NCBI GenBank assembly: GCA_938035125.1
Contig: CALHNS010000009.1
Coordinates: 62,001-126,000 of the forward strand
Direction of reading: 5' to 3'
Length of the DNA stretch: 64,000 nucleotides
DNA from: an uncultured Granulosicoccaceae bacterium
GTDB taxonomy: Bacteria; Pseudomonadota; Gammaproteobacteria; Granulosicoccales; Granulosicoccaceae
The first letter of the stretch is position 1. Each line of letters starts with the position of its first letter. The notes under the pieces were generated by a model, which was not told the origin of the DNA, ran no database searches, and saw nothing but the letters and a program-made list of their open reading frames with translations. The translations under genes and the position numbers were made by a program. Shown here piece after piece: positions 2,173 through 9,525 of this stretch.

Positions 2173-3975
2173 ATGAGCTTAATGTTCTCCGGAATTGGCG
2201 TATCACGAGGTCTGGCCATTGGCGAGATTCACGTGCTTCGTCGTGATGGATTGGATGTTGAAGCCCGAACCTTAGAAAAAAAAGAACTTGCTGAAGAAGT
2301 TCGTAGGCTCAAAAAAGCGCTTAAAACGGCAAGAACGCAATTACGCGCAACCAAAGATTCTATTCCCAAAGACGCCCCATCGGACGTTAGCGCGTTTATC
2401 GATTCGCATTTACTCATGCTTGATGATAAAGCGTTATCGCAAACACCCATCGATATTATAAAAGCTGAACAACTCAATGCAGAAGCAGCTTTAAAACAAC
2501 AACAACAAGCTCTGGTGTCGGTCTTTGAAGCAATGGACGACACCTACATTGCCACCCGCGTTGATGATGTTAATCAAGTTATCGCTTTAATTTTACAAGC
2601 ACTTTCAGGTGGCGCAGATCCTTTCACCGACCCTGAAGCTTGGAAAGGCCGAATTGTGGTGGCTGACGATTTAACCCCTGCCGATACGATCATTATGCAA
2701 AATCATGGAGTGGCAGGTTTTGTAACCGAGCAAGGAGGTCAGCTATCGCACACAGCGATTTTGGCGAGAAGTCTTGGCATACCCGCTGTTGTTGGTTTGC
2801 ACAGTGTTCGAAAATATTTAAGAAACGGCGAAACCGTTACCTTGAATGGGAATTCAGGTTTACTGGTTGCAGAACCCACTGACGAACATTTAGTTGATAT
2901 AAAGTTACGCCAAAAAGAGGCGCGAAAGGCTGCCAGAGAACTCTCTAGCCTTATAGATAAAGACAGCGTAACCTTAGATGGCACCCCGCTACAACTGTGG
3001 GCCAACATCGAAATGGACGACGATGTCAAAGCATTAAAACGCGTGAACGCAGCCGGTGTCGGTTTATACCGCACCGAATTTTTATACATGAACCGAACCA
3101 GTGCGCCTAGTGAGCAGGATCACTACAAAGAATACACAAAAATTCTTCGAACGTTAAAAGGTGCACCACTCACCATTCGCACGGTCGATTTAGGCGCTGA
3201 TAAATTAACCGATTCACAATCAAATGCTGGGCCCCTGGCACACAACCCAGCAATGGGTTTGCGAGGAATTCGTTTAGCCCTGGCTGACTTATCTTTATTT
3301 GTGCCGCAGCTTCGAGCCATATTGCGCACCTCAGCCAAAGGGCCTGTGCGGCTACTGATTCCGATGTTAACTAACCTTGCCGAACTTGCCCAAGTAAAAG
3401 CACTGATTGAAGAGGTGAAAGTTGCCTTAGATGAAGAAGGCTTAGCTTATGATCCTGACATTCCAATTGGCGGCATGATTGAAATTCCCGCCGCAGCCAT
3501 TGCAGTACGAGCCTTTGCGAACGAATTGGATTTTTTATCTATCGGTACCAACGATTTAATTCAGTACACCTTGGCTATAGATCGTATCGATGATCAAGTG
3601 CATTATCTATACGACCCTATACATCCTGCGATGTTGCAACTTATCGAGATGATAATAAAGGCGGGCAAAGAAGCTAATATTCCTGTCACCTTGTGCGGAG
3701 AAATGGCCGGTGACCCCACTTATGTGCGCGTCTTATTAGGCCTTGGATTAACCGAATTTAGTATGCCGCCAAAATTATTGTTAGCGGTTAAGCAAGAGCT
3801 CATTCAATCGAAAATAAGTCGGCTTAGGCCCTTAGCGCAGCGACTCATACAAGCCGCTGATGCAGATGCACAACAACATCTGCTGGGTTTGATGAACAAG
3901 CCAGCTGAAAAAACCGCTGGCAAAGCAAGTCGCAAAGCCAAGAATAAGCCGCGTCAACGAAAGAACAAATTTTGA
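2173..3975 (+). CDS. ptsI: Phosphoenolpyruvate-protein phosphotransferase (enzyme I)
   Basis: Enzyme I takes phosphate from phosphoenolpyruvate and hands it to HPr/NPr. The phospho-histidine is in GGQLSHTAILAR (His193) and the PEP-site cysteine in TLCGEMAGDP (Cys508). The protein starts directly with the EI N-terminal domain and lacks the GAF domain of the nitrogen-type PtsP, yet it sits in a PTS-Ntr operon, so one GAF-less EI probably feeds the whole system. The last about 25 residues form a Lys/Arg-rich tail (residues 576-600) beyond the usual EI end. Its TGA overlaps the TTG start of mgtE. Confidence 0.95.
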   Translation: MSLMFSGIGVSRGLAIGEIHVLRRDGLDVEARTLEKKELAEEVRRLKKALKTARTQLRATKDSIPKDAPSDVSAFIDSHLLMLDDKALSQTPIDIIKAEQLNAEAALKQQQQALVSVFEAMDDTYIATRVDDVNQVIALILQALSGGADPFTDPEAWKGRIVVADDLTPADTIIMQNHGVAGFVTEQGGQLSHTAILARSLGIPAVVGLHSVRKYLRNGETVTLNGNSGLLVAEPTDEHLVDIKLRQKEARKAARELSSLIDKDSVTLDGTPLQLWANIEMDDDVKALKRVNAAGVGLYRTEFLYMNRTSAPSEQDHYKEYTKILRTLKGAPLTIRTVDLGADKLTDSQSNAGPLAHNPAMGLRGIRLALADLSLFVPQLRAILRTSAKGPVRLLIPMLTNLAELAQVKALIEEVKVALDEEGLAYDPDIPIGGMIEIPAAAIAVRAFANELDFLSIGTNDLIQYTLAIDRIDDQVHYLYDPIHPAMLQLIEMIIKAGKEANIPVTLCGEMAGDPTYVRVLLGLGLTEFSMPPKLLLAVKQELIQSKISRLRPLAQRLIQAADADAQQHLLGLMNKPAEKTAGKASRKAKNKPRQRKNKF

Positions 3976-5321
3976 CGTCCGCAGAGTCAACAGACGAACA
4001 ACCCTTCACGGCACTTGCAGAATCGATTTCAACAGGATCGTTGAACTCAGCCCGTGCCGTCATGCAGGCGATGCATCCTGCTGAAATTGCCGATGCACTG
4101 GAATCCTTACCGCCCAATAAACGTTTGGTGTTGTGGGACTTAGTTGACCCTGAGATCGATGGCGACGTGCTGCTTGAAGTGCACGATGAAGTCCGTGATC
4201 AATTGGTTCAAGATATGGACATCAATGAACTCAGAGCAGCAACGGAGCATCTGGACATTGATGACATGGCCGACTTCATTCAAGGCCTATCTGAAAAATT
4301 AACTCACGATGTGCTCGTTGGCATGGACCGCCAAGACAGAGAGCGTTTAGAGCAGCTTTTAGAATACCCCGAAGACTGCGCCGGTGGCTTAATGAATCTT
4401 GACACCATTACGGTTCGAGACGATGTTAGCTTAGAGGTGGTACTGCGTTATCTGCGCAGCCGAGGCGATATGCCGCGACATACCGATAGGCTTTGGGTGG
4501 TAGATCGGTTCGGTCATTATCGCGGCGAGCTGCCTATGCGCCGATTGGTTACCAACCCCCTCGACACCTTAGTTAATGATGTTGCCAGGTTCGACCGTGA
4601 CCCAATCCCTGTTATGGCCTCAGCAACAGAAGTTGCACGGCAGTTCGAAGATTATGATTTGGTGTCAGCCCCAGTGGTAGATGAAAACAACTACCTGCTG
4701 GGCCGCGTCACGATCGATGATGTGGTGGATGTGATTCGCGATGAAGCCGAACAATCGGTGATGAGTATGGCTGGCTTAAATCAAGAGGCCGACACCTTCG
4801 CCCCCATTGTTCGAAGTGCCAGGCGGCGAGCAATTTGGCTGGGCGTTAACCTGCTCACAGCGCTACTCGCATCTTGGGTTATCGCACAATTTGAAACGAC
4901 TCTAGATCGCGTGGTAACCCTTGCTGTACTGATGAGTGTGGCACCTAGTATGGGCGGCATTGCAGGCAGCCAAACCTTAACCCTTGTGATTCGAGCTCAA
5001 GCCTTAGGTCAGATAAACAGACGTAATCAACGCGAATTGCTCATACGAGAACTTGGGGTGGGCTTACTGAACGGATTAGCGTGGGCTGCAATCGTCTGTG
5101 TGCTGATTACGTGGTGGTTCAATGATCTCAATATTGGTCTGATTCTGGGCGCTGCCTTAATGATCAACCTGCTCATGGCAGCTTTGGCTGGCATGATGCT
5201 GCCCATCGTAATGAAACGATTCGGCATTGACCCTGCGCTGGCTGGTGGCGTAGCGCTCACCACTGTCACCGATGTCGTGGGCCTTTTGGCATTCCTGGGC
5301 TTGGCAACGGCTTTGCTATAA
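3972..5321 (+). CDS. mgtE: Magnesium transporter MgtE
   Basis: Inner-membrane Mg2+ channel/transporter. The order is an N-terminal helical superfamily domain (about 15-120, with PAEIADALESLP), a CBS pair (about 130-255, including PVVDENNYLLGRVTIDDVVD) and five membrane helices from about 285 to the end with the conserved PSMGGIAGSQTLTLVIR stretch. 449 aa is typical. The start is TTG at 3972, overlapping the ptsI stop as TTGA; this start is required because the MgtE_N domain begins immediately. The overlap implies translational coupling to the PTS-Ntr operon, which fits the general link of PTS-Ntr with cation homeostasis (inference). Confidence 0.94.
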   Translation: MTSAESTDEQPFTALAESISTGSLNSARAVMQAMHPAEIADALESLPPNKRLVLWDLVDPEIDGDVLLEVHDEVRDQLVQDMDINELRAATEHLDIDDMADFIQGLSEKLTHDVLVGMDRQDRERLEQLLEYPEDCAGGLMNLDTITVRDDVSLEVVLRYLRSRGDMPRHTDRLWVVDRFGHYRGELPMRRLVTNPLDTLVNDVARFDRDPIPVMASATEVARQFEDYDLVSAPVVDENNYLLGRVTIDDVVDVIRDEAEQSVMSMAGLNQEADTFAPIVRSARRRAIWLGVNLLTALLASWVIAQFETTLDRVVTLAVLMSVAPSMGGIAGSQTLTLVIRAQALGQINRRNQRELLIRELGVGLLNGLAWAAIVCVLITWWFNDLNIGLILGAALMINLLMAALAGMMLPIVMKRFGIDPALAGGVALTTVTDVVGLLAFLGLATALL

Positions 5322-5576
5322 CGCTGCCTGCCCCGCCAGCCTGAGCGCAACTGGCTGAGCGGATGCGCCCCTGCGAGCTGCCTTGCTAGTGGTTTAACAA
5401 GCCGCTCGACATATTCGATTAGCGGCAAAACTTTTCCAGTGAATTGGCTAATTTTCGATCAGTCTTTTCTCATTCCGGACCGGATACGGCCTAAGTACGT
5501 GAATTGCTGCACAGTATTCGATGGATAATAGAGGTTGAGTTACGACCATTCATCACATATCAAATTTGCACCAAAT

Positions 5577-5681
5577 TTATCCACAGACCTCCCCATTCTT
5601 CGATGCTCATCAAACCCCTTGCTTTGGGGGTTTCAGTAACTTATTCACAGTTGCACCCAAGTTATCCACAACTTATCCCAT
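5577..5681 (+). promoter_or_regulatory. Cluster of three DnaA boxes
   Basis: Three 9-mers match the DnaA box consensus TTWTNCACA exactly: TTATCCACA at 5577-5585, TTATTCACA at 5641-5649 and TTATCCACA at 5662-5670. A degenerate fourth, TTATCCCAT, is at 5673-5681. All lie on the same strand. DnaA is known to bind upstream of nrdAB in Escherichia coli and to link nucleotide supply to replication; here the cluster precedes a class II reductase. The origin of replication is an alternative reading, but no dnaA, gidA or rnpA is present nearby. Confidence 0.7.
5612..5633 (+). terminator. Hairpin within the nrdJ upstream region
   Basis: AAACCCC (5612-5618) pairs with GGGGTTT (5627-5633) around an 8-base loop. 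Only three T follow before CAG, so it is a weak terminator candidate at best. It lies between the first and second DnaA boxes. Confidence 0.3.
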
Positions 5682-5708
5682 TATCGACCGTGGCGAAATC
5701 AGTATAAA
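5681..5708 (+). promoter_or_regulatory. Candidate nrdJ promoter overlapped by NrdR box
   Basis: A possible -35 TTATCG (5681-5686) and a good -10 TATAAA (5703-5708) are separated by 16 bases. The palindromic NrdR box starts two bases after the -10, so a bound repressor would cover the transcription start. A second possibility further down is TTGCGC (5767-5772), 17 bases, TACACT (5790-5795). Confidence 0.4.
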
Positions 5709-5709
5709 A

Positions 5710-5756
5710 ACACTACATGTAGTGCTTAGGATTCGATCAGTTACGAGATGTGGTGG
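5710..5756 (+). promoter_or_regulatory. NrdR box pair
   Basis: Box 1 (5710-5725) reads ACACTACATGTAGTGC and contains a perfect 14-base palindrome (5711-5724); it closely fits the NrdR consensus acaCwAtATaTwGtgt. Box 2 (5741-5756) reads TTACGAGATGTGGTGG and keeps the core C, A, AT, T and Gtg positions. The centres are 31 bases apart, the phased spacing typical of NrdR box pairs. NrdR is the dATP/ATP-sensing repressor of ribonucleotide reductase genes. Confidence 0.75.
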
Positions 5757-5898
5757 TTTTAGGCCATTGCGCGTAGCATTTTACGGCAGTACACTTGCGC
5801 GCCGGATCACAGTTTTAGCGTAGGAACAGGGCAAAGCAGTAACCGCACGGAAAAGCAACGGTTAGTAATCTCTTTGGCCAAACTGAAATTGAGCATCT

Positions 5899-5987
5899 AC
5901 ACTACATATTGTGGTTTGAAGAGACATCAACCACACTATGAGGTGCTGACCCATTGATCTGGGGCAAAACAACACTACATTTATACA
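5899..5987 (+). promoter_or_regulatory. Additional NrdR-like boxes
   Basis: ACACTACATATTGTGG at 5899-5914 fits the NrdR consensus at nearly all positions. ACACTACATTTATACA at 5972-5987 keeps a good left half but lacks the right-half G. A weak partner is visible around 5931-5946 (CCACACTATGAGGTGC), 32 bases centre to centre from the first. The site could be a second operator near the start of nrdJa. Confidence 0.5.
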
Positions 5988-6054
5988 TACCGAATCCAAG
6001 TGCTGCCTACCTCCTTGTGCGCGCATGGCTTCGAACCGGGGACTCTATCCAAAC

Positions 6055-8229
6055 ATGAAGACAATGGATGTACTTAATCAACCCGCGCGACCCCCACAAA
6101 CCAAGCCTTCTGCTTTGGCAAAAATTGCCTTGCAAGAGACCTCTCTAGACATCTGGGACAAAAAATACCGTCTAAAAACCAAAGACGGTGAGCCGGTGGA
6201 CGGATCCATCGATGAAACGCTAGATCGGGTGGCCAAAGCACTCGCTGATGTAGAAAAAGCCGATAAACGTGAGTACTGGTACGAACGTTTTGTATGGGCA
6301 TTGAAGCAAGGCGCTATACCGGCAGGGCGAATCACCTCAAACGCAGGCGCTCGCGAGCACAAACCGGCAACCTCCACCATTAATTGCACCGTCTCAGGCA
6401 CTATCAGCGACTCAATGGACGACATCTTAGGCAAGGTGCATGAAGCTGGCCTCACCTTAAAAGCCGGTTGCGGTATCGGCTACGATTTCTCCACCCTACG
6501 CCCTCGCGGTGCCTATGTTTCTGGTGCAGGCGCTTACACCTCTGGCCCGCTGTCGTTTATGGATATCTTCGACAAAATGTGCTTCACCGTATCCTCTGCT
6601 GGTGGCCGTCGTGGAGCGCAAATGGGCACTTTCGATGTGCGCCATCCCGATGTATTGGAATTTATCAAAGCCAAGCGAGAAGACGGACGACTTCGCCAAT
6701 TCAATCTTTCATTGCTTATTACCGAAGATTTCATTCAAGCAGTGAAAGCGGATGAGCCTTGGCAGTTAGCGTTCCCCATTCGCCAAAAAGAACTGGATAA
6801 CGGGGAGATCCAAACTGACAACCCTGATGAAGTGGTGTGGCGCGATTGGCCAACACAAAACGAAGTCGTGGTAAACGACGAAGGTCTTGTGGCTTGCCGT
6901 ATTTATAAGACGTTACCAGCACGCAGATTGTGGGATCTAATCATGGCCTCCACATACGATTTTGCAGAACCTGGGTTCATCTTAATTGACAAGGTGAACG
7001 AGATGAACAACAACTGGTTTGATGAATCGATTCGCGCCACAAACCCTTGCGGTGAACAGCCCCTACCGCCTTATGGCGCGTGCTTACTGGGTTCAATTAA
7101 TTTAACGCGTTTCGTTTTAGACCCTTTCACCGACAAAGCTCGCTTTGATTGGGACAATTTTCGCGAAACCGTACAAGTTTTCACTCGCATGTTAGATAAC
7201 GTGGTGGAAATTAACGGTCTACCGCTAGAGCGCCAACAACAAGAAATTATGCGTAAGCGCCGACATGGCATGGGTTACTTAGGTTTGGGTTCAACGCTTG
7301 CGTTAATGAAAATGCAATACGGCAGTGAGGACTCACTAGAATTTACTGAAACCGTGACCCGCGAATTGGCCATGGCAGGATGGCGCACCGCTTTAGATCT
7401 TGCTCGTGAGAAAGGGCCAGCTCCCATCATGAATGAGGTGTTCGAAGTGACTGGCGAGATGTTACGAAAGCGCCCTGAAATGCGTAAAGATGGGTTTAAA
7501 GTGGGCGATAAAATTGCTGGCCGCGTATTGCATGCACGCTACAGTCGTTACATGCAACGTGTGGCTGAAGTTGACCCAGAATTGGTTGATGCCTTAGCAG
7601 AAAGTGGTGCACGTTTTACTCACCACACATCCATCGCCCCCACAGGCACCATTTCTTTATCGCTTGCGAATAACGCAAGTAATGGCATTGAGCCAAGTTT
7701 TGCGCACCACTATTCACGCAATGTGATTCGTGAAGGTCGAAAAACAAAAGAAAAAGTAGATGTGCATTCGTTTGAATTACTGGCTTACCGCGAACTGGTG
7801 AATGAGAACGCCATGCCGTATGCAGAAGAGCCTGCGAACCAATTACCAGATTACTTTGTGGCAGCGGACGCTATCTCGCCTGCACAACATGTGTCTGTTC
7901 AGGCTGCGGCTCAGAAATGGATTGATTCATCCATTTCTAAAACAGCCAATGTGCCCACCGATTATGCCTTTGATGATTTCAAAGACATATACATGATGGC
8001 TTACGAGCAAGGCCTAAAGGGCTGCACCACATTCCGATTCAATCCAGAAAATTTTCAAGGCGTTTTGGTGCAAGAAAAAGATTTGGAGAACACCGAATAC
8101 CAGTTCACCTTAGACGATGGCTCGATTGTTAAGGTCAAAGGGAATGAAGAAATTGAGTACGACGGTGAAACCCATACTGCGGCCAACTTATACGATGCAT
8201 TGAAGGAAGGTTATTACGGCAAGTTTTGA
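6055..8229 (+). CDS. nrdJ: Adenosylcobalamin-dependent ribonucleotide reductase, large part (NrdJa)
   Basis: Class II ribonucleotide reductase that converts ribonucleotides to deoxyribonucleotides using a B12-derived thiyl radical. Visible motifs are the substrate-site Cys in INCTVSGTI, the KAGCGIGYDFSTLRPRGA stretch, SSAGGRRGAQMGTFDVRHPD, the catalytic loop NPCGEQPLPPYGACLLGS (N, C and E of the active site; about residue 330) and TSIAPTGTISL. The C-terminal TSCPD/cysteine part is encoded separately by nrdJb, so the enzyme is split as in Pseudomonas. The frame is open from an ATG at 6025, but neither that ATG nor those at 6055 and 6064 has a strong ribosome site; 6055 or 6064 gives the usual N-terminus. 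It is preceded by NrdR and DnaA boxes. Confidence 0.93.
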   Translation: MKTMDVLNQPARPPQTKPSALAKIALQETSLDIWDKKYRLKTKDGEPVDGSIDETLDRVAKALADVEKADKREYWYERFVWALKQGAIPAGRITSNAGAREHKPATSTINCTVSGTISDSMDDILGKVHEAGLTLKAGCGIGYDFSTLRPRGAYVSGAGAYTSGPLSFMDIFDKMCFTVSSAGGRRGAQMGTFDVRHPDVLEFIKAKREDGRLRQFNLSLLITEDFIQAVKADEPWQLAFPIRQKELDNGEIQTDNPDEVVWRDWPTQNEVVVNDEGLVACRIYKTLPARRLWDLIMASTYDFAEPGFILIDKVNEMNNNWFDESIRATNPCGEQPLPPYGACLLGSINLTRFVLDPFTDKARFDWDNFRETVQVFTRMLDNVVEINGLPLERQQQEIMRKRRHGMGYLGLGSTLALMKMQYGSEDSLEFTETVTRELAMAGWRTALDLAREKGPAPIMNEVFEVTGEMLRKRPEMRKDGFKVGDKIAGRVLHARYSRYMQRVAEVDPELVDALAESGARFTHHTSIAPTGTISLSLANNASNGIEPSFAHHYSRNVIREGRKTKEKVDVHSFELLAYRELVNENAMPYAEEPANQLPDYFVAADAISPAQHVSVQAAAQKWIDSSISKTANVPTDYAFDDFKDIYMMAYEQGLKGCTTFRFNPENFQGVLVQEKDLENTEYQFTLDDGSIVKVKGNEEIEYDGETHTAANLYDALKEGYYGKF

Positions 8230-8287
8230 TTCAAAGCGCATTGCAGGCTTAATCCAAAACCAACGCCATTTAAAAAGTGTAAAACCT

Positions 8288-8974
8288 ATGAAAATCAATA
8301 AGAAAATTGTTGGCTACGCGGTCAACACTCCCGATGTCCAAGCCGATGCACCCGTTGCAGCGAAAGCTGATGTCATCCAAATGCACGAGACGCTCAAGCG
8401 TCCTGAGATGTTGGTGGGTTCAACTTACAAGCTCAAGGTGCCGGAGCATGTGTCTCCGCATGCGATGTACATCACCATCAACGACATCATTTTGAACGAA
8501 GGCACCGAGCACGAACTGCGTCGCCCGTTCGAGGTGTTTATCAATTCAAAAAACCTTGATCACCATCAATGGATTGTGGCATTAACTCGAATCATGTCAG
8601 CGGTATTTCGAAAAGGTGGCGACGTCACATTTTTAGTTGAAGAACTCCGATCGGTTTTTGATCCGCGTGGCGGCTATTGGAATAAAGGCTCTTATATGCC
8701 GTCAATCATCGCAGAAATTGGCGAAATCATTGAGCGTCATCTGACGATCATCGGTATGATTCAAAAAACGGAATTAGATGAGCATCAGAAGAAGCTAATT
8801 GAAGAGAAGAAGGCCGAATTGCAGGCCGAGGCTGAGTCTTCAACGGGTGGCGCTGATGGCGAACAAGCTTGGATGGCAAACGCTACAATGTGCGTAAAAT
8901 GTAACCAGAAATCGGTAGTGGTGCGTGACGGTTGTCAAACCTGCATGAATTGCGGCGATTCTAAATGCGGTTAG
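8288..8974 (+). CDS. nrdJb: Class II ribonucleotide reductase C-terminal part (NrdJb, TSCPD domain)
   Basis: A 228-aa protein corresponding to the C-terminal end of one-chain NrdJ enzymes. It has a TSCPD-type domain (about 35-150, with MYITINDI, EVFINSKN and GGYWNKGSYMPSIIAEIG), a charged helical linker (about 160-190) and a cysteine-rich tail with CVKC, CQTC, NCG and a final KCG. The tail cysteines are expected to re-reduce the active site of NrdJa after each turnover. It lies 58 bases after nrdJa on the same strand; both parts should form one enzyme. Confidence 0.88.
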   Translation: MKINKKIVGYAVNTPDVQADAPVAAKADVIQMHETLKRPEMLVGSTYKLKVPEHVSPHAMYITINDIILNEGTEHELRRPFEVFINSKNLDHHQWIVALTRIMSAVFRKGGDVTFLVEELRSVFDPRGGYWNKGSYMPSIIAEIGEIIERHLTIIGMIQKTELDEHQKKLIEEKKAELQAEAESSTGGADGEQAWMANATMCVKCNQKSVVVRDGCQTCMNCGDSKCG

Positions 8975-9007
8975 ACGCCGTTCACAGTTTAATCTAGAGG
9001 TAGCAGC

Positions 9008-9232
9008 ATGAAATGTCACGGATGCAAAAGCCCGATGATTCTCGATAAGGCGGAGACCGCCGGGCGAGTCACCACCGAATGGCACAGTTGCCCGATATGC
9101 AACAAAGTAAAAATGCACAGTGAATTGTCTGACATTAGAGCACCCGATTCGCGCTGGAACGAACTAGAAGAGGCGGTTTCAGAACACAGTTCAATGGCCT
9201 ACTCACAACAGCAGGACACCACCCACGCATGA
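9008..9232 (+). CDS. Small zinc-ribbon protein of unknown function
   Basis: A 74-aa protein with two CxxC pairs (Cys3/Cys6 and Cys28/Cys31) spaced like a zinc ribbon or rubredoxin-like metal knuckle, followed by an acidic helical tail. I do not recognise a named family. It starts 33 bases after nrdJb, with AGAGGTAG as a good ribosome site, and its stop overlaps the next start (ATGA). The position suggests a role with the ribonucleotide reductase, for example as a redox or metal partner of the cysteine tail; this is inference only. Confidence 0.75.
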   Translation: MKCHGCKSPMILDKAETAGRVTTEWHSCPICNKVKMHSELSDIRAPDSRWNELEEAVSEHSSMAYSQQQDTTHA

Positions 9233-9525
9233 GCGAACTCAAGCTTTCACACGAGTTAGTCAATGAGCTTACCGCCATCGTTAAAAAACACGATGACAAG
9301 GCCGATGACCCAGGCGTTACTTCGCAGTATCTTTGTGCTGTCGTTGGTTTTCTTTTAGGCCAACAAGATATGCCAACAGAACGTAAAAAAAGTTTGGTTG
9401 ATGAACTGGGTGCTTTCATGCAACACGTTGTGGACGATGTCAGTCGTCAGCATCAAGCACCTGCGGCATCAACCCCTCCTCCACCCCCACAAGATGCGTT
9501 TGGCATCTGGAAACCAAAATCATGA
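9229..9525 (+). CDS. Uncharacterised 98-aa protein
   Basis: A small, probably helical cytoplasmic protein with no signal peptide or membrane helix. Residues 1-70 are mixed charged/hydrophobic (LSHELVNELTAIVKKHDD and later FLLGQQDMPTERKKSLVDEL), followed by a Pro-rich stretch STPPPPPQD and a short end. It overlaps its upstream neighbour by 4 bases and the downstream parvulin by 4 bases, so all three are likely translated together. No function can be assigned. Confidence 0.75.
   Translation: MSELKLSHELVNELTAIVKKHDDKADDPGVTSQYLCAVVGFLLGQQDMPTERKKSLVDELGAFMQHVVDDVSRQHQAPAASTPPPPPQDAFGIWKPKS

Follow-up and report, generated by a model that had tools for sequence, protein, structure and literature searches.

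The nrdAB operon of Escherichia coli is described, in the accessible portions of the published work, as being acted on by both the initiator DnaA and the regulator NrdR, and a DnaA ChIP-seq site lies upstream of the E. coli class III gene nrdD. NrdR represses the class II gene nrdJ in Streptomyces coelicolor, according to the available text. For Pseudomonas aeruginosa, the excerpted report describes repression of nrdJ by NrdR in aerobic reporters and, anaerobically, a lower level of nrdJa in an nrdR mutant. Our search of the literature on NrdR, DnaA, and nrdJ, which had most subscription papers outside its reach, turned up no paper that places DnaA sites at nrdJ; in the available text of one paper that contains both terms, nrdJ and the DnaA box stand in separate sections. 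A literature search of the same reach found no paper on Granulosicoccus that deals with ribonucleotide reductase. An earlier reading of the locus, made from the sequence alone (the sequence-only reading), had held that no case was described of both regulators on a class II nrdJ. NrdR by itself had already been reported on nrdJ in P. aeruginosa and S. coelicolor. Since NrdR on nrdJ and DnaA at nrdAB and nrdD were known, what appears to be new is confined to DnaA sites at a gene of class II.

The nrdJ operon and its upstream sites

The DNA analyzed is a 64,000-nucleotide stretch, hereafter the window, from an uncultured member of the Granulosicoccaceae. It encodes on the forward strand a class II (adenosylcobalamin) ribonucleotide reductase, NrdJa (positions 6055 to 8229; TIGR02504, 576 bits against a cut-off of 400), whose start was picked from alignment with relatives, and NrdJb, a separate C-terminal part with a TSCPD domain and a Cys-rich end (8288 to 8974, forward strand). 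The B12-dependent reductase that the sequence-only reading had placed downstream of the boxes is thus present, split in two. The upstream neighbor is the magnesium transporter gene mgtE (3972 to 5321, forward strand), and the DnaA and NrdR boxes occupy the 733-bp gap between mgtE and nrdJa. The host assembly (3.54 Mb, 92.5% complete, with the window on contig C9) contains one match to PF02867, at nrdJ. It has no match to PF00268 (NrdB), which is matched in 6 of 48 genomes of the family, and none to PF13597 (NrdD), a class III search that covered this genome alone. A second reductase may possibly have been missed in an assembly of this completeness; for class I, such an enzyme would depart from the pattern of the family. 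As the sole reductase detected, nrdJ probably encodes the housekeeping enzyme. For the same reason, one part of the earlier reading misleads: it had tied an oxygen-independent enzyme to replication and dATP sensing, and the sites do stand at a class II nrdJ, but the emphasis on oxygen is misplaced for a gene that is the sole reductase found. As a separate observation, the nrdJ match is split near residue 333 within one long frame (∼1100 to 1500 codons) in relatives G020 (C1:6713234-6716524) and G017 and in several genomes of the class, as expected for intein insertion.

Three exact DnaA 9-mers, all on the forward strand, lie within 94 bp, as the sequence-only reading had stated: a distal TTATCCACA (5577 to 5585), a TTATTCACA (5641 to 5649) placed 21 bp ahead of the main box, and the main box itself, again TTATCCACA (5662 to 5670), with a weak half box, TTATCC (5673 to 5678), beyond a 2-bp gap. 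Among relatives with upstream sequence, the two nearest (L011 and L012) carry an exact copy of the distal box 85 bp upstream of their main box, and L011 has TTACCCACA at the position matching the 5641 box. Between the DnaA boxes, downstream of mgtE, lies a GC-rich hairpin (5612 to 5633, forward strand; folding z −1.98, with 10 of 200 shuffles folding equally well). It is a possible mgtE terminator that lacks a T run, and it drew no terminator call in a promoter/terminator scan of positions 5200 to 6200.

The genome holds 62 copies of TTATCCACA and 58 of TTATTCACA, and among these 120 sites the nrdJ group is the only triple within 100 bp, with the A and G forms of the box left out of the count. 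Such a triple is expected 0.0005 times per genome and arose in 0.06% of 20,000 random placements, so that the genome-wide motif scan called for in the earlier reading finds a density at nrdJ beyond chance. The sole other group of three such boxes within 200 bp is on contig C11, between dnaN-like and dnaA-like open reading frames (ORFs). Three exact boxes are peculiar to the window; the other family loci carry at most two upstream of nrdJ. From their sequence and distribution, the DnaA-type sites at nrdJ look functional.

For NrdR, mismatches were counted against ACACWATATATWGTGT, which we take to be the box consensus. Two pairs of boxes, all on the forward strand, were placed. The distal pair begins with ACACTACATGTAGTGC (5710 to 5725; 3 mismatches), and its partner follows at a 31-bp phase (5741 to 5756; 7 mismatches). 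The proximal pair begins with ACACTACATATTGTGG (5899 to 5914; 2 mismatches), and its partner, placed by alignment, follows 32 bp on (5931 to 5946; 6 mismatches). Each window pair therefore consists of one good box and one degenerate box (2 to 3 and 6 to 7 mismatches) at 31 to 32 bp, and at the positions of both degenerate partners better NrdR boxes stand in relatives. Of the four NrdR boxes claimed by the sequence-only reading, those at 5710 and 5899 are confirmed. The partner at 5741 is sound in its phasing, which is kept in relatives, and poor as a box. The one at 5972 is doubtful: with 6 mismatches, and overlapping the −10 of a promoter-like pair found in the window and four relatives, it is probably a promoter element rather than an NrdR box, as judged from the sequence. 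A core pattern, ACWAVATRTWGTG, written after the boxes of the window and its relatives had been viewed, has exact matches in the genome only at 5710 to 5725 (both strands) and 5899 to 5914; with one mismatch allowed it shows no genome-wide enrichment (61 matches versus 128 for the reversed control). The genome encodes NrdR (TIGR00244, 201 bits against a cut-off of 125).

A putative promoter, P1 (5767 to 5795, forward strand), was placed by hand against relatives as TTGCGC (5767), a 17-nt spacer, and TACACT (5790). The template in relatives is TTGACC, a spacer of 17 or 18 nt, and TACACT, TAGACT, or TACAAT; the window copy has a poor −35 (3 of 6 positions) and was missed by two promoter scans. 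Downstream of the proximal NrdR pair lies a second putative promoter, P2 (5954 to 5981, forward strand), read as TTGATC, 16 nt, and TACATT (5976 to 5981), its −10 being the element that overlaps the supposed 5972 box; a promoter-like pair in this place is seen in the window and in L013, L018, L021, and L022. The second promoter could equally be the pair TTGGCC (5874), 18 nt, and TACACT (5898), spanning 5874 to 5903 on the forward strand, its −10 running into the 5899 NrdR box. The scan of 5200 to 6200 gave one promoter-like site, on the reverse strand, against 1.1 expected, and no terminator. Positions 4800 to 9500 contained no cobalamin riboswitch and no Rfam match of any family up to an E value of 1.

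Conservation of the arrangement in relatives

nrdJ was found in 45 of the 48 family genomes. The upstream regions of 43 were scanned, and one with only 92 bp was dropped, leaving 42 loci including the window. Conservation of the boxes in relatives, a check that the earlier reading had proposed, extends to part of the family: TTATCCACA occurs within 900 bp upstream of nrdJ in 21 of the 42 loci, in every case on the forward strand (21 versus 0). Six further loci, all in the window's genus, carry TTGTCCACA, and 13 of the 42 carry neither TTATNCACA nor TTGTCCACA on the forward strand. Among 1679 permuted words scanned in the same 42 loci, the best, ACTTATCCA, which itself shares an overlap with the DnaA motif, reached 11 loci, versus 21 for TTATCCACA. 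Three loci of another genus of the family, g4 (L032, L034, and L035), have no exact DnaA box at nrdJ and show an unusual NrdR layout.

The upstream sequences are too diverged for their full alignment to be interpreted over its whole length; anchoring on the NrdR box worked. The usual order in the genus is a DnaA box, an NrdR pair at 31 bp, P1, and a second NrdR pair at 31 to 32 bp. With up to 4 mismatches allowed in each box, 19 of the 23 genus loci have an NrdR pair at 31 to 32 bp and 8 of the 23 have two; in the family, the count of loci with a pair is 26 of 42. By this measure no pair stands in the window, L011, L027, or L028. P1 was detected by scan in 19 of the 23 genus loci (all except the window, L011, L012, and L027), which together with the hand-placed window promoter gives 20 loci with a placed P1. 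In 17 of these, TTATCCACA or TTGTCCACA starts 100 to 112 bp before the P1 −35, and the remaining three have changed words at a comparable place: CTGTCCACA at 113 bp in L024, GTATCCACA at 126 bp in L028, and CTATCCACA at 90 bp in L031. The 8-bp spread of this distance refers to boxes chosen within 60 to 160 bp of the −35; lifting that limit adds the sole other exact copies in the 20 loci, at 190 bp (the window's 5577 box) and 719 bp (L017). Against this near-fixed interval, the distance from the box to the start codon ranges from 326 to 543 bp (standard deviation, 56 bp). The position of the box thus appears to be set by the promoter, which speaks for promoter control rather than titration. In the 20 related loci, a helical-phase test of the box-to-promoter distance gave a mean vector length of 0.60 at 10.5 bp, which is no more than suggestive. 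In L013, L018, L021, and L022, the more upstream of the two distal NrdR boxes seems to have been lost, and the distance from DnaA box to promoter is kept (100 to 102 bp).

E. coli DnaA is reported, in the portion of the source available, to prefer paired boxes with a gap of 2 or 3 bp over single ones. We scored 9-mer mismatch at 74 offsets around the DnaA box. Across 27 family loci, mismatch was lowest at +11 (2.81), then at −11 (3.48) and +22 (4.11), the mean over offsets being 5.73. In other families, 16 regions upstream of nrdJ supplied 17 TTATCCACA sites, and at these the lowest two of the 74 were −11 (3.71) and +11 (3.82). Eight other TTATCCACA sites in the window genome, the first 8 listed and chosen with no regard to intergenic status, lacked flanking boxes (6.0 and 6.5 mismatches at −11 and +11). 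We read the 11-bp flanking boxes as an independent sign, at the sequence level, that the sites at nrdJ are tailored to DnaA. The window itself has a weak +11 neighbor of the main box (TTATCCCAT), and its nearest exact box is the one 21 bp upstream.

Other close pairings of boxes were seen away from nrdJ. The window genome (G000) has a head-to-head TTATCCACA/TGTGGATAA with 5 bp between (C14:80599-80621; L168, 1100 to 1122), preceded by CTATCCACA 12 bp ahead, just upstream of an ORF that we take by eye to be priA. The same 14-bp offset between paired boxes recurs in G030 (C10:52599/52613) and, at several places, in G020 (e.g., 613570/613584, 4980221/4980235, 4997474/4997488, and 6560677/6560691).

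Beyond the family, 107 nrdJ loci of other gammaproteobacterial families were drawn from 276 genomes. An NrdR-like box (at most 3 mismatches) is present at 83 of them, whereas five shuffling rounds gave 0 to 4 of 107. An exact TTATCCACA on either strand lies no more than 100 bp from the best NrdR-like box at 10 of the 83 loci; permuted words averaged 0.13 and reached 9 at most, and the stretch 600 to 900 bp upstream gave 2 of 79. The ten loci span seven families (f2, f13, f32, f88, f96, f109, and f112). In two loci of family f140 the box stands 37 bp ahead of a more distal NrdR pair, an arrangement that part of the window's family shares. Counted across all 900 bp, TTATCCACA occurs in 16 of the 107 loci (8 on each strand); one of 1679 permuted words reaches 20, and the mean is 0.47. 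By these sequence matches, the pairing of a DnaA box with an NrdR box at nrdJ is recurrent, yet it is a minority arrangement outside the family. A link between the boxes and absence of a class I reductase was considered and did not emerge: among loci without class I, an exact TTATNCACA is on the forward strand in 7 of 80 and on the reverse in 7 of 80, and where class I is present the counts are 2 of 29 and 3 of 29. The same question within the family gave TTGTCCACA at nrdJ in three genomes with class I (G020, G044, and G045) and three without (G022, G034, and G043).

Proposed control of nrdJ and competing explanations

We consider it likely, from the sequence comparisons above, that positions 5577 to 5981 form the control region of a housekeeping class II operon, nrdJa-nrdJb, in which a DnaA array and dATP-loaded NrdR together set the level of reductase. 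Several things seen in the sequence underlie this reading: the sites themselves are there; the DnaA boxes outnumber what chance would give, are conserved in part of the family, and hold a fixed position with respect to P1; relatives show the double-box form; and genes for DnaA and NrdR are present. What we infer from these is protein binding, activation by DnaA, repression of P1 by NrdR, and the existence of a second promoter. DnaA would bind cooperatively at the array, whose main member starts ∼105 bp upstream of the P1 −35, and would tune P1 so that the reductase level follows the amount and nucleotide state of DnaA. NrdR loaded with dATP would bind the phased pair between the DnaA array and P1, as well as the second phased pair downstream, and would shut transcription when deoxynucleotides are plentiful. 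Counting against this reading, the main DnaA box lies ∼130 to 140 bp before the inferred start site, a long way for it to make simple contact with RNA polymerase. Also on that side are the 13 family loci with neither word, the small share of loci outside the family (10 of 83) with an exact box near the NrdR box, and, in the window, the poor −35 of P1, the degenerate second NrdR boxes, and the weak box at +11. In the clade of the window, L011, and L012, P1 is unseen by scan and the exact DnaA boxes number two or three; our guess is that this would suit an activator-dependent promoter.

By analogy with E. coli nrdAB, DnaA could also repress nrdJ when ATP bound. The variant in which DnaA mainly represses, with an ATP-DnaA array spreading from the strong box toward P1, is one that we hold as a tentative possibility. 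The weaker boxes at 11-bp steps downstream (+11 and +22) fit a growing array, and a review, in its accessible part, states that high ATP-DnaA represses nrdAB in E. coli; even so, the +22 box still ends ∼70 bp before the −35.

Other explanations sever the DnaA boxes from nrdJ altogether. They might form a titration or nucleotide-exchange site (datA- or DARS-like) that lies beside nrdJ by chance and does not regulate it. The uniqueness of the triple in the genome suits such a site, as does the fact that titration sites need no promoter, but we regard this as unlikely given that the box-to-−35 distance is kept across the genus and that the box recurs beside the nrdJ NrdR boxes of other families more often than in the more distant upstream stretch. 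Somewhat less probable still is that NrdR alone regulates nrdJ and that the DnaA boxes are chance matches or relics. NrdR-like boxes are common at nrdJ outside the family and DnaA boxes few, and half of the family loci (21 of 42) lack an exact TTATCCACA; set against this are the rarity expected of the triple and the conservation of strand, place, and 11-bp phasing. That the region is a replication origin, an alternative raised by the earlier reading should a dnaA gene map here, we give almost no credence. It has several DnaA boxes in an intergenic stretch, as an origin would, but the dnaA-like ORF is on contig C11, where ORFs that we take, by eye from their translations, to be recF, dnaN, dnaA, rnpA, and yidC are grouped with five TTATCCACA boxes. 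Furthermore, in the one-contig relative G020, boxes at 1.7 to 1.9 kb lie ∼1.07 Mb from nrdJ around the circle, taking these as the dnaA mark and the contig as circular.

Across the Gammaproteobacteria, we offer as a speculation, somewhat doubtful at present, that DnaA control follows the job and not the gene family: nrdJ serving as sole reductase would have gained an nrdAB-like DnaA double box together with NrdR boxes, so that initiator and dATP sensor would act as one logic unit on whichever reductase feeds replication, and in the window's clade the −35 would have decayed while DnaA boxes multiplied. Such decay coupled to a gain of boxes would make nrdJ dependent on DnaA there. If joint control of nrdJ by DnaA and NrdR is correct, the link between DnaA and reductase, drawn for class Ia and lately for class III in E. 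coli, would be carried over to a B12-dependent reductase, the sole one detected in its host, and replication capacity in these bacteria would be tied to cobalamin supply. The locus gives a precise promoter anatomy, from DnaA array through NrdR pair and promoter to a second NrdR pair.

Comparison with described reductase promoters

Each comparison here is with the accessible text of the report concerned. The Listeria monocytogenes nrdAB promoter has four NrdR boxes in two pairs, one distal and one proximal, the boxes being separated by 15 to 16 bp; it differs from the present locus in serving a class I enzyme, and its paper never mentions DnaA. The nrdRJ operon of S. coelicolor belongs to another phylum and has nrdR linked to nrdJ, and in the text at hand DnaA sites on its nrdJ were not seen described. 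In P. aeruginosa, nrdJab likewise encodes a class II reductase in split form; it has two NrdR boxes and is aerobically repressed by NrdR in reporters. In contrast to the window genome, P. aeruginosa has classes Ia and III as well, and the nrdJab/NrdR paper makes no mention of DnaA. E. coli nrdDG, with a DnaA ChIP-seq site and two NrdR boxes, resembles the window locus as an oxygen-independent reductase; it is a class III enzyme and one of three reductases in its host. With nrdJ as the probable housekeeping gene, its arrangement parallels that of E. coli nrdAB, where a DnaA double box (listed in the ChIP-seq table) and NrdR boxes stand on the main aerobic reductase. The two differ in enzyme class (Ia versus II), in the spacing of the DnaA pair (3 bp in E. 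coli versus the 2 bp favored here), and in the two NrdR pairs of the window and its relatives, unlike E. coli nrdAB.
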